From NCBI GenBank assembly GCA_033391075.1, contig JAWPMV010000001.1, positions 1,860,001 to 1,924,000 of the forward strand: a DNA stretch of 64,000 nucleotides, in the 5' to 3' direction. Below the pieces are notes generated by a model, which was not told the origin of the DNA, searched no databases, and saw nothing but the letters and a program-made list of their open reading frames with translations. The DNA is from Bacteroidia bacterium (lineage in GTDB: Bacteria; Bacteroidota; Bacteroidia; J057). This document shows positions 1,251-4,547 of the stretch, one piece after another. Positions within the stretch are counted from its first letter, which is position 1. Each line of letters starts with the position of its first letter. The translations under genes were made by a program, and so were the position numbers.

Positions 1251-3584
1251 ATGCTTCAGGCCCGAGAACCGAAACAGATTCGGCAGCTCCTAATCCTTTC
1301 TCTCATACTTTACCTGTTTTCGTCTCATGTAATGGGACAGAATACCAAACGCATTCTTGACCCGGAAACTACTAAGGGCGACAGAGCCTTTCTTTATCCA
1401 GATCGTCTCACTAAAAATGATACCTGGTCGCCCGAATTTTCCTATAGCCTTTCCGATAGCCTCAATCCGTCTCAACCAATTACCTATCTCCAGGGAATTT
1501 GTTGGACGGGCTCGGAATATTGGATTGGTATATGGGGAGGGAGTTATCAGGGCAGCATTTTCCGGGTCGATGCTCAGGGAAGGCGTATTGGTGGATTTAG
1601 TATCATAGGGGTAACGGGGATTACAGGTCTTACTCGTGCAGGAGATAAGGTTTATGTAGTAAATGAGAGCGATAAGATATATGAAATCCATAAAGACACT
1701 CGACAGCGACTTTCAACTATCACTATCAATGGAAATGCCCGTCCGACTTTTCTCACCTTTTCACCGGAAATTGACAATGGAAACGGAGGCTTTTTTGCAG
1801 GAAATTTTGAAATAAATTCTCCTCTGTATGAGATTTCCATGCAGGGCGAATTATTAAAGATCATTCCACCGGAAATACATCAGCAGCGAGTGATGACCGG
1901 GGCTGCATATGATACAGTCAGTGCAGGTGGTCCTTATCTCTGGGTTTTTAATCAGGAAGAACCGGGCAATCCATCGGAAGCAGTCATAACGCAGCTGGAT
2001 GCTTCTAATGGACAGTATACCGGAATCTATAAAGACGTAACGGAGGACTATGGGGATCAATTTAGTGCAGGTGGAGGACTATTTATCTCAGAAAGTGTAG
2101 TCAATGGGAAATTGATTCTGGGAGGAGTTTTACAAAGCAGCCCTTCAGATTTCCTAGTTGGTTATGAACTCAATTTTCAAGTTCCCCGAATCGATGCCTC
2201 CATAAATAATGTAATCATCAATGAAGGGCTTACGCAAGTTCCCAGTCAGCATAGACCGGAATTCAGTTTCTCGGGAAGCCTGAGCAATAGAGGGATAGAT
2301 ACCCTGGATCAATTGCAAGTCAAACTAGAAATAAAAAGAGAGAATGAATCTGCCGTTCTATTTAGTGATCAGGTCAATTTGGACAAGCTGGCCTATCTAT
2401 CTGAGGCAAATTTTGAACTCGGACCCTGGAATGGGACAGAAAGCGGCAAATTCATCATTGAAACTCAGGTTCTGACCGGCCAACAGCAAGATGAGTCTTT
2501 GGTTAATAATAGCTTCGTTCAGGAATTGGTGATAGGAGATTCTATCATGGCTCTGGATGATGGGAGAGATGCAGGCGTTTTGGGCTTAGGTTTTGGGGCG
2601 GAAAATAAAACCTATTTTGGGCAGGTTTTTCCGGCTAAGGAAGAGCTTTTCGACTACCTGACTTCCATTACTTTTAAACTAAGAAATCCCAGAGAAGGCG
2701 ACCAGATTCAGGCTAGTGTATTCGATATAGATCCGGAAACAGATAGACCGATAGGCGTTCCAGTAGCTAGCACAATCACTTATCAGATTACCAAAATGGA
2801 TGAGGATAGTGGGGTAGTGTTAAACTTACCTTTGGCTGATGGTCCCTATCCTATTTTTCCGGGTAAATTCTTTGTAGCAGTAAAAGAAGGAGAAAGGCCT
2901 TTATCTCTGGTGTATAGTGACAATATTTACAGAGTAGAGGAAAGATTTGTGCGAACAGATACAGTCATAGCCGGAACTCCTTTCAATGGAGACTGGGTAG
3001 AAATAGAAGAAATATATGCAGATCCGGTAAAGCCTGCACTGATGATCCGGCCCAACTTTGGCCCTTGTGTACCAACTTATATGACAGGAAACATAAGTGT
3101 AAGCGGAGATAGAGGTTCGGGAGATGGAACAGCTACGGTCGAAGTAGAAGGTGCAGGTGGTTCTTATAGCTATCTCTGGGATGATCCTTCTGCTCAGAGC
3201 GGAGCTACTGCAACAGGCCTTCTTAAAGATCAGGAGTATTCCGTTACCATCACAGATACTACAGGTTGTACCTTAACACTCAAGAGTGATCCCATCCCCA
3301 ATTTGGTCAGCATAGACAATCTACCTGGAGCGGGTATTGTAAGTTTGAAAATTCACCCGAATCCGGCCTATGAGGATTTGATAGTAAACTTTGAATTAGA
3401 TCGTCCGGATCAAGTGGAAGTAAATTTGCTTGATTTAAAAGGGCAGTATTTATTCAGGGATGAGAAGCCAGGGGCTTTCCAGTATCAAAGGAGGATTTAC
3501 ATAAAAGATTATGCGAAGGGGATTTATATTCTGGAAGTGAAGACTAGTAGGGGGAGTTTTAGGGAAAGGATTATGTTGAGGTAA
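1251..3584 (+). CDS. T9SS-exported multidomain protein with SprB-type repeat
   Basis: The protein has 777 residues. The N-terminus has a hydrophobic export signal (about residues 12-29, ending VMGQ). Residues 60-310 have the repeated Gly/Trp-rich strands of a beta-propeller-like domain (GICWTGSEYWIG, GITGLTRAGDKVYVV). A CARDB-like Ig region follows. At about 625-690 there is an SprB-like repeat (SYLWDDPSAQSGATATGL, TITDTTGC). The last 80 residues are a T9SS type A sorting domain (IHPNPAYEDLIV, GIYILEV, RIMLR). It should be exported across the outer membrane and processed at the cell surface. No enzymatic motif was recognised; a role in adhesion or binding is an inference. Confidence 0.85.
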   Translation: MLQAREPKQIRQLLILSLILYLFSSHVMGQNTKRILDPETTKGDRAFLYPDRLTKNDTWSPEFSYSLSDSLNPSQPITYLQGICWTGSEYWIGIWGGSYQGSIFRVDAQGRRIGGFSIIGVTGITGLTRAGDKVYVVNESDKIYEIHKDTRQRLSTITINGNARPTFLTFSPEIDNGNGGFFAGNFEINSPLYEISMQGELLKIIPPEIHQQRVMTGAAYDTVSAGGPYLWVFNQEEPGNPSEAVITQLDASNGQYTGIYKDVTEDYGDQFSAGGGLFISESVVNGKLILGGVLQSSPSDFLVGYELNFQVPRIDASINNVIINEGLTQVPSQHRPEFSFSGSLSNRGIDTLDQLQVKLEIKRENESAVLFSDQVNLDKLAYLSEANFELGPWNGTESGKFIIETQVLTGQQQDESLVNNSFVQELVIGDSIMALDDGRDAGVLGLGFGAENKTYFGQVFPAKEELFDYLTSITFKLRNPREGDQIQASVFDIDPETDRPIGVPVASTITYQITKMDEDSGVVLNLPLADGPYPIFPGKFFVAVKEGERPLSLVYSDNIYRVEERFVRTDTVIAGTPFNGDWVEIEEIYADPVKPALMIRPNFGPCVPTYMTGNISVSGDRGSGDGTATVEVEGAGGSYSYLWDDPSAQSGATATGLLKDQEYSVTITDTTGCTLTLKSDPIPNLVSIDNLPGAGIVSLKIHPNPAYEDLIVNFELDRPDQVEVNLLDLKGQYLFRDEKPGAFQYQRRIYIKDYAKGIYILEVKTSRGSFRERIMLR

Positions 3585-3620
3585 ATCGAAGATTTTTTTT
3601 GTGGTTTTTTAGGGCTTGTT

Positions 3621-3722
3621 TCCATCTTTTTTAGAAAAAGATGGAGTCAAAAATCGCAGCGCCAAGAACCATCCGCACAAGCCGCCCCTTTTCCCGATTG
3701 GCGCTGCCGGGCCTGCGCGCCT
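3621..3722 (+). repeat. GC-rich stem-loop module, copy 1
   Basis: The A/T hairpin is TCCATCTTTTT (3621-3631) / AAAAAGATGGA (3635-3645), 11 perfect pairs with a TAG loop. The GC stem is GCAGCGCC (3656-3663) / GGCGCTGC (3700-3707), 8 perfect pairs around a 36-base loop. The loop contains CCGCAC, GCCCC-like and CCCGAT segments, all shared with copy 2. Confidence 0.75.
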
Positions 3723-3735
3723 GGGAGTAGGGAAA

Positions 3736-3829
3736 GGTGTTTGGGTATTAGTGTATTAAGGTGTTAGCGATTGTTATTACCAGGTTACACTTCAACTCTA
3801 ACACCCTAACACCCTAACACCCTAACACG
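3736..3829. repeat. Octamer inverted repeat, unit CTAACACC (site A)
   Basis: The right arm at 3798-3829 is four tandem copies of CTAACACC (the last ends in G). The left arm at 3736-3767 is a degenerate reverse complement (GGTGTTTGGG.. to ..AAGGTGTTAG). The two arms can form an imperfect hairpin of about 30 bp. It sits exactly between the two GC-rich modules. Confidence 0.8.
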
Positions 3830-3852
3830 CAAAAACTCCAATACGTTTTCCT

Positions 3853-3958
3853 CATGCGCGCCGGGGCCAGGCTGCTGCATCGGGTGCGGGGGCTGGACAG
3901 TGCGGCTGGTTTGCAGCAGCTTGATTTTTTGTTTCTTTTTCATCTAAGGAAAAAGAAA
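3853..3958 (-). repeat. GC-rich stem-loop module, copy 2 (inverted)
   Basis: On the minus strand this has the same order of parts as copy 1. The A/T hairpin uses arms TTTCTTTTTC / GAAAAAGAAA (3932-3941, 3949-3958). The GC stem is GCTGCTGC / GCAGCAGC (plus-strand 3871-3878 and 3913-3920). The loop again contains CCGCAC, a C-run and CCCGAT. The stem sequence differs from copy 1, but pairing is kept. Confidence 0.75.
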
Positions 3959-4180
3959 AAAGACTAATAAAAACACTTAAGCTTACAAAGCCGTTCCATA
4001 GTTCTAAGCAGTTTCGCCAGGAAAAATCTACAATTGGAACCAATTTCAACACGAATAGTAAATTTTTTTCCAACTTTACATCCAAATTGCGGTCTTTACG
4101 TAAAATGATTTGATGTTCAAGCTTTATAGCTAAAACATTTTTTGTAAATTGAAGATAATAACCGCTAAAGAGAGAATATT

Positions 4181-4375
4181 ATGAAGTTCGACAAAAACTG
4201 GATACTGAAGAGTTACATGAAGCTTCCCCTTGCTGGTAAAGTGATCGTACCTTTCGCAGCTCTGTTTCTGATCAGTGCTTTGATCAAGTCTGTCAAAACC
4301 GCTCTGATGCTCGGACTTATTGGCCTGGCAGTATATGTGGTGCTAAAAGCAGTCGACAAAACAGGTTCGAAATAA
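4181..4375 (+). CDS. Small membrane protein, 64 aa
   Basis: A short basic N-terminus (MKFDKNWILKSYMK) is followed by one or two hydrophobic segments, about residues 20-35 and 41-58, and a charged tail. The short length, ATG start and a strong terminator immediately downstream support a real gene. No family was recognised. It is likely an inner-membrane protein. Confidence 0.65.
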   Translation: MKFDKNWILKSYMKLPLAGKVIVPFAALFLISALIKSVKTALMLGLIGLAVYVVLKAVDKTGSK

Positions 4376-4440: not shown

Positions 4441-4455
4441 TCGAAGATAAGGTGA

Positions 4456-4542
4456 GTGTTAGGGTGTTTGAGTTTTAGTGTGTTAGCGAAATGAATTCCC
4501 ATTCTAACACCCTAACACCCTATTACTCAAACACCCTAAAAC
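4456..4542. repeat. Octamer inverted repeat, unit CTAACACC (site B)
   Basis: The left arm (4456-4486, GTGTTAGGGTGTTTGAG..) is an imperfect reverse complement of the right arm (4504-4542), which starts with two CTAACACC copies and ends CAAACACCCTAAAAC. It lies between two converging genes. The unit is the same as at site A, 700 bases upstream. Confidence 0.8.
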
Positions 4543-4547
4543 GGTTA

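Follow-up and report, generated by a model that had tools for sequence, protein, structure and literature searches.

Background and overview

Among the described families, the REP/BIME/REPIN repeats come closest to the locus considered here, and two other classes provide further points of comparison, namely MITEs, a minisatellite-bearing representative of which is reportedly present in Porphyromonas gingivalis, and intrinsic terminators, in which a GC stem is followed by a T-run. REPs measure 20-40 bp according to PMC3733652. In Escherichia coli, Y and Z REPs are two subfamilies that are joined as inverted pairs, and the TnpA-Y1 genes of subclass 2.6 in Bacteroidetes are flanked by atypical secondary structures without GTAG, as both are described in PMC6006769. 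Openly accessible main texts on REP/RAYT repeats hold no recognisable description of the family reported below, and searches with its motif strings led to unrelated papers.

The locus is a composite of two inverted structured modules, denoted m1 and m2, within a 64-kb window (the whole stretch of DNA that was analysed) of a genome of 9.49 Mb in 5 contigs, denoted G000; L-numbers refer to stretches fetched from genomes. These modules probably constitute non-autonomous mobile DNA of a REP/BIME-like type in Bacteroidota. One of the two possibilities raised in an earlier, sequence-only reading of the window was a mobile REP-like DNA unit, and this is the best reading in view of the copy number, the arrangement and the site differences between congeners.

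The composite in the window

The sequence-only reading described two inverted modules with the same order of parts that enclose a repeat hairpin. The presence of two structured inverted modules is confirmed, and the enclosed hairpin, a CTAACACC/GGGTGTTA repeat, is found between them (Table 1). The gene located 5' of the composite encodes a protein of 777 aa with a Por_Secre_tail sorting domain (profile match), a domain typical of Bacteroidota. Both copies, of approximately 104 nt, consist of an A/T hairpin, an A-rich linker, a GC stem with a C-rich loop and a GGCC..GCGCGC tail, in this order, and the linker of the modules in general mostly ends in ATC. When read on the plus strand, the m2 linker is a T-run that follows the stem. 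Within the window, the covariance model matches only m1 and m2.

Table 1. Features of the composite (positions are those of the window)
Feature	Position	Strand	Description	Evidence
Whole composite	3606..3975	none	m1> spacer <m2, tails facing; lies in the gap that follows gene 1251-3584	
Module m1, whole	3619..3720	+		covariance model E 1.6e-27 in own genome; m1 alignment
m1 A/T hairpin	3620..3646	+	loop TAG	alignment-derived structure; inverted repeat
m1 linker	3647..3655	+	TCAAAAATC	m1 alignment
m1 GC stem-loop	3656..3707	+		A-U/C-G switches among 38 copies
m1 stem arms	3656-3665, 3698-3707	+	GCAGCGCCAA, TTGGCGCTGC; 10 bp	
m1 loop	3666-3697	+		
m1 tail	3708..3720	+	CGGGCCTGCGCGC	m1 alignment; cross-genome comparison
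Central spacer	3721..3855	none	G-rich half, CTAACACC repeat half	hairpin-capable
Module m2, whole	3856..3961	-		covariance model E 3.4e-26; m2 alignment
m2 tail	3856-3870	-		
m2 GC stem-loop	3871..3920	-	arms 3871-3879 and 3912-3920	inverted repeat; alignment-derived structure
m2 linker	3921..3932	-	CAAAAAATCAA on the minus strand	m2 alignment
m2 A/T hairpin	3933..3957	-	loop CCTTAGATG	alignment-derived structure

The composite folds into one long hairpin, owing to the homology and opposite orientation of m1 and m2. The folding energy of the composite as single-stranded DNA is -86.2 kcal/mol vs a mean of -52.4 (sd 4.3) in 100 shuffles (z -7.9), and as RNA the z value vs shuffles is -7.1. Among 18 composites, the spacer ranges in length from 0 to 145 nt and is also variable in content, and thus lies outside the constant unit. 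Co-evolution of the partners within a composite was considered and rejected, given that the energies in cis and in trans are -67.8 and -67.2 kcal/mol (p 0.24, 18 composites).

A second hairpin of this kind, CTAACACC/GTGTTAGGG, is located at 4453-4543 of the window, after a 64-aa ORF, with no modules. This octamer repeat seems to belong to a distinct family, G-rich and telomere-like, that is also represented in spacers, for example by the GGGTGTTT repeats in L050.

Copy number and spread among genomes

According to the sequence-only reading, many hits of a covariance model in this genome and in other Bacteroidota would speak for a structured family, and such hits were obtained. A blastn search of G000 with 3600-3980 gave at least 67 matches (in the best 40 of 168 candidates), by which chance or low complexity is ruled out as the origin of the modules. 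The covariance model of the module (R1) gave at least 100 matches at E<=0.001 in the same genome (the best 100 of 6293 candidates), and a model of m1 with both helices (R2) gave at least 88 (in the best 150 candidates). The consensus structure on which R1 was built is poor (8 pairs), and finding copies was the sole use of this model. When applied to the window together with 58 fetched stretches, R1 yielded 107 matches at E<=0.001, of which the window accounts for two. The window and 37 further places in G000 contain 70 module instances, 62 of which (38 m1 and 24 m2) make up the alignments, the 8 truncated or rearranged copies having been left out. In G000, m1 and m2 are two subfamilies, each with its own copy population. 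It is nearly certain that the modules form a structured repeat family.

The family is patchily distributed. R1 detects 53 modules in G010; modules are present in 5 of the 13 genomes of the same family, own genome included (G000, G001, G002, G004 and G010; R2), and R1 matches are found in 10 of 40 related genomes, again including the own one. In more distant relatives, the A/T hairpin and the linker are joined to other large stem-loops. Across the phylum, an m2-like hairpin pattern matches 8 of 395 genomes (0 for the reversed control), G000 itself being without a match. The loop and tail combined with any stem were found on four contigs of a species-genome collection, which are equal in length to contigs of G001 and G002 and add no new evidence.

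Pairing, covariation and conserved sequence

In the 38 aligned m1 copies, 97.0% of cells pair, and 38 cells are changed on both sides vs a shuffled mean of 14.2. The covariation score of this alignment, which was not fitted to the structure, is 0.145 vs 0.065 shuffled and at most 0.045 for slid partners. In particular, two positions of the m1 stem switch, from A-U to C-G in 12 of the 38 copies and from C-G to A-U in 11. The GC stem of the 24 m2 copies hardly varies, and in 11 of these copies three pairs of the m2 A/T hairpin vary jointly, maybe in part through one event or a register shift. A cross-genome alignment of 34 modules (one row partial), taken from 28 selected stretches in five genomes, was fitted to the structure, which inflates the counts obtained from it. 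Of its cells, 95.3% pair; double changes occur in 19 of the 20 pairs, and covariation scores 0.730 vs 0.189 shuffled and at most 0.185 slid. Covarying stems are thus present well beyond the two copies on which the sequence-only reading was based.

The stems were also compared between families without any alignment. The commonest stem is GCAGAGCC/GGCTCTGC in m1 and GCTGCTGC/GCAGCAGC in m2 of G000, GAAGCGAG/CTCGCTTC in G010, GCGGATTT/AAATCCGC in G002 (one copy), AGTCGCCT/AGGCGACG in G001 (7/8 paired) and CGGGGAAT/ATTCCCCG in G004. With its own partner, each of these pairs at 7-8 of 8 positions, and with arms of other families at 0-4 of 8. Complete 8/8 pairing is observed in 50/70 m1, 22/25 m2 and 22/23 G010 modules vs 0.6%, 0.6% and 0% of shuffles; at a threshold of at least 7/8, the counts are 61/70, 24/25 and 23/23 vs 11%, 9% and 5%. 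Single copies elsewhere pair at 8/8 in one of three cases in G001, in all four in G004 and in the one case in G002. The stem-pairing counts and the cluster counts given below are based on 104 of the 107 R1 matches, the three weakest, which are palindromes read backwards, having been left out; for stem pairing, 10 modules with no recognisable linker (9 in G000 and 1 in G001) were also set aside.

The loop CAGCC..CC.CCCC..CCCGATG and the tail GGGCC..CGC are conserved in the m1-type modules of G000, G001 and G002, and are more distant in the modules of G004 and G010. Within a genome the stems resemble one another, and between genomes they are unrelated, while the loop and tail stay recognisable. 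Judging from these comparisons, the proposal that selection acts on module structure is strongly supported. The sequence-only reading went further and posited selection on structure rather than on sequence; this second part is incorrect, as the loop and tail have a conserved sequence in the m1-type modules of three genomes, and the stems are the parts that differ. The paired changes that it noted between the two stems do preserve pairing, but the copies are members of two subfamilies rather than alleles, and the m1 stem has 10 bp, not 8.

Covariation would be equally expected of a trans- or cis-acting structured RNA family, such as a regulatory leader or a small RNA that is multicopy by chance, and in 19 of 23 G010 modules the end with the A/T hairpin is no more than 60 nt away from the next called gene. 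Nevertheless, we regard this explanation as highly improbable. A search of the whole window with 4227 Rfam families gave 0 matches at the gathering score, and the matches at relaxed E-values (miRNA families on simple repeats, PhrS, rli40 and trpB) were rejected as none of them is credible. Furthermore, modules occur in both orientations and in every type of gap, and the tail-to-tail pairs and reversed hairpin loops (see below) point to DNA. Strong covariation in intergenic repeats should not be taken as necessarily indicating an RNA gene.

Several variants of the modules were observed in addition. A third module type, m3, with the linker CAAAAACYGGC and the stem GCAAGAT/ATCTTGC, is present in G000 (L169 2314-2414, L170 2694-2789 and L174 2298-2392), where it is paired tail to tail with m1-like modules having the hairpin CAAACTTTTTTTAG... 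A G010-like module with the stem GAAACGAGC/GCTCGTTTC is found in G000 as well (L175 5075-5175), so stem types can be common to lineages. In some m2 copies of G000 (L035, L039, L046, L059 and L165), a longer TCAGGACAGGCATCGC-like piece replaces the A/T hairpin before the linker, and a comparable replacement is seen in G001 (L116). Half of an A/T hairpin (5' arm and loop) precedes the intact one by approximately 25 nt in both m1 (L025, L038, L047 and L056) and m2 (L029, L033, L034 and L040), and could have arisen by slippage or by insertion beside an older end. Many m2-like modules of relatives (L009-L022, L100, L113 and others) have a hairpin loop CTTGAT that is complementary to ATCAAG after the linker, which might form a possible pseudoknot; the m2 modules of G000 retain this complementarity with one bulge (CTTAGAT). 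Finally, TTACTT directly follows CCGCAC at the right end of 6 of 34 G010 modules, and the same letters occur in the left hairpin of the element, GTTACTTTTTTT.

Arrangement and genomic placement

The examined modules of G000 form 61 clusters, 30 of which contain an inverted pair, with the tails facing each other and the A/T hairpins outside in all 30; the other 31 are single modules or same-direction arrays. These counts include weak matches (marked '?'), that is, twelve copies in ten clusters that mostly are m3, have GC-ending linkers or are rearranged. Five unpaired clusters (L035, L047, L051, L055 and L058) have a short m2 remnant alongside, and L059 contains an extra opposite-direction match that overlaps the palindrome. 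In the arrays of L165, L168 and L173, each repeat comprises a module and about 130-195 nt of other sequence. A called ORF is overlapped by 5 of the 61 clusters; otherwise, modules are located in gaps between genes.

This placement bears on the possibility that the modules are transcription terminators or insulators that are kept for ending transcripts, either as their only function or as a second role. When a module is read from the tail side, a T-run (GATTTTTTG) comes immediately after the GC stem, and a second T-rich tract comes next; transcription arriving from either side would be stopped by an inverted pair. Among the G000 clusters with genes on both sides, 29 are in tandem, 16 in convergent and 11 in divergent gaps, vs 37, 6 and 9 of the gaps in the window; convergent gaps are thus somewhat over-represented (16/56 clusters vs 6/52 window gaps, p 0.03). 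Unpaired modules in tandem gaps of G010 and G000 oppose transcription 25:9 (25/34, p 0.009), or in 22 of 30 cases (p 0.016) when four modules with a partner remnant are excluded. The orientation count covers 35 G010 modules, 32 of them scored, and 28 of the 31 unpaired G000 clusters, 27 of them scored, the three clusters without a called flanking gene having been left out. The gene calls rely on a simple codon score that misses small genes, including the 64-aa ORF at 4181-4375, so the gap of the composite in the window was called convergent.

The bias against transcription fits a terminator, or else insertions that are best tolerated where they end transcription. Termination as the explanation of the modules is, however, doubtful: divergent gaps hold 11 of the 56 G000 clusters and 5 of the 32 scored G010 modules, 9 of the 34 modules in tandem gaps are oriented the other way, and a terminator needs neither a conserved 32-nt loop nor the GGCC..GCGCGC tail and A/T hairpin. 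Moreover, a terminator consensus scan missed the G010 module of L148 and, in the window, detected only part of the m2 stem (3904-3921), near shuffle level.

The GC skew of twenty 20-kb samples and other fetched stretches places the origin/terminus near 6.7-6.8 and 2.8 Mb. There is no replication-strand bias among the clusters of G000 (30 leading vs 27 lagging, p 0.79, from 92 chromosomal matches), and lagging-strand insertion of the IS608 kind, which predicts such a bias, was rejected.

Site differences between congeners and module ends

Three collinear sites of the congeners G010 and G002 differ in module presence. At site (i), G010 has a module in a gap of 374 bp, the counterpart of which in G002 is 90 bp long and without a module, and the two gaps do not align. 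At site (ii), the module of G010 is contained in a 161-nt gap (L152 2477-2637), and the same genes are 1 nt apart in G002 (L093 604, 606). At site (iii), on the far side of the second gene of site (ii), G002 has a 162-nt gap (L093 1473-1634) containing a module whose stem is GCGGATTT/AAATCCGC, and G010 has another ORF and no module. Site (ii) favours a gain in G010 and is the only one of the three that points to gain over loss; the extra 160 nt at this site also bounds the size of the inserted piece. No usable collinear site in G002 was found for L156, L160 and the first module of L146. Viewed as one gene row (L093 1-3105 in G002, L152 1874-5103 in G010), the two genomes have modules at neighbouring but different junctions, with the unrelated stems GCGGATTT and GAAACGAA.

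Flanking target duplications had been suggested as a sign of mobility in the sequence-only reading, and no signal of this kind was detected at 34 of the 35 G010 modules (longest flank repeat 5.15 vs 4.98, sd 0.17, in controls; p 0.19), where the fuzzy left end could hide a short one. The loop of the A/T hairpin is reversed from TAG to CTA in 4 of 62 scored m1 modules and from CCTTAGATG to CATCTAAGG in one m2 module, which suggests that these loops might derive from DNA-level hairpin inversion.

Search for a mobilizing enzyme

No transposase-like family recurs beside the modules in a comparison of neighbour genes. Ten neighbour gene clusters present in three or more loci were displayed, and seven of these are interpreted as read-through of the modules themselves, whereas three are ordinary-looking enzyme or transporter families found in 3 or 4 loci, so that some of the positions may be old. 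At L026 and L038, an autonomous element flanked by modules was rejected, given that the gene between the two composites (L026) and the gene between a composite and a single module (L038) look ordinary.

Canonical REP/REPIN repeats are moved by a RAYT (Y1 HUH transposase), for instance one of the Bacteroidetes subclass 2.6, and the modules share with them the high copy number, the intergenic location, the inverted pairs and the arrays. Y1_Tnp (PF01797) is encoded in 26 of 40 related genomes and in 74 of the 99 genomes of a class sample; it is matched in 8 of 10 module-bearing vs 18 of 30 other genomes (p 0.45). G000 itself encodes one weak match, a 154-aa protein with DHVH (L061 5630-6094), whose neighbours we take to be genes for a ComEC-like membrane protein and an enoyl-CoA-hydratase-like protein, and there is no module within the 12 kb examined around it. 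In the profile search, Y1_Tnp was absent from the module-bearing genomes G001 (89% complete) and G021 (95%).

The linkage to a RAYT-like gene that the sequence-only reading envisaged did not materialize. In 75 stretches around Y1_Tnp genes (flanks of up to 1.5 kb; L141 and L204 overlap the same gene), no module was detected at E below 0.5 with a model derived from G000 modules, the best two values being 0.58 and 0.96, and motif scans of these stretches showed no convincing module, with a widened scanner that recovers 10 of 12 known module loci. The RAYT-type Y..NP motif is present in 14 of the 75 stretches, four of which have the subclass 2.6 motif as given in PMC6006769; 23 are unclassified, including the one from G000. 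Inspection of the alignments revealed no GT[AG]G foot: the linker before the stem is an A-run that mostly ends in TC, a T-rich sequence precedes the A/T hairpin, and GGGTAG is confined to a subset of m1 copies, where it is located beyond the tail. Even with a Y1_Tnp gene in G000 and a loose fit to the subclass 2.6 description in PMC6006769, movement of the modules by a RAYT is unlikely on the tests done, and we consider it quite improbable as the overall explanation, although such an enzyme might act in trans.

A model for the proposed mobile element

Under the mobile-element reading, an enzyme acting in trans would recognise the folded strand by its helices, loop and tail, and would copy or move the module into intergenic sites. 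Each lineage would have amplified a founder with its own stem, which would account for the similarity of stems within a genome and their dissimilarity between genomes, and the copies oriented to end transcription would have been preferentially kept. Mobility is supported by the high copy number, the patchy spread in the family (5/13), the tail-to-tail pairs, the arrays and the compensatory changes in two helices. Conversely, no mover was found in the searches described above, there is no target duplication and no strand bias, and the site differences amount to only three sites in two species.

A more specific proposal, which we put forward tentatively, is that the modules represent a class of mobile DNA with a mover other than RAYTs, in which the loop and tail stay constant and the stem serves as an address that can be swapped, each genome lineage having a stem of its own. 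Such a pattern would be expected from an arms race between the stem and the mover, or between the stem and a host defence or a rival parasite. At least two stem types (among m1, m2 and m3) coexist in G000 as partners within an inverted pair, so that either a single mover would have to accept dissimilar ends or two would have to act together. Most work on REP-like repeats considers them alongside their RAYT, and a large family without a visible RAYT gives a handle for finding the mover, which is expected to bind the constant loop, the tail and the hairpin geometry, with a specificity that may track the stem.

Comparison with known systems

When read from the tail to the hairpin, the modules resemble intrinsic terminators in having a GC stem followed by a T-run, but differ from these in the long conserved loop, the conserved tail, the extra A/T hairpin and the presence in divergent gaps. 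They share with MITEs the non-autonomous character, the inverted repeats, the internal short tandem repeats and the occurrence in Bacteroidota, whereas the lack of a target-site duplication signal, the structured ends and the frequent single modules and arrays set them apart. The structures associated with TnpA-Y1 subclass 2.6 come from the same phylum and are likewise repeated without GTAG, according to PMC6006769; however, the four 2.6-like genes have no module within the flanks of up to 1.5 kb on each side, and in other species these structures may be identical with the modules. In contrast to REPs, for which PMC3733652 gives 20-40 bp, the modules are approximately 104 nt long, with two hairpins and a 32-nt loop; they also lack the GTAG/GTGG foot and a linked RAYT in the 75 stretches, and their stems are wholly different between genomes. 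Otherwise, the modules parallel REP/BIME/REPIN as short palindromic, intergenic, high-copy repeats that form inverted pairs of two subfamilies as well as arrays, with one long hairpin possible.
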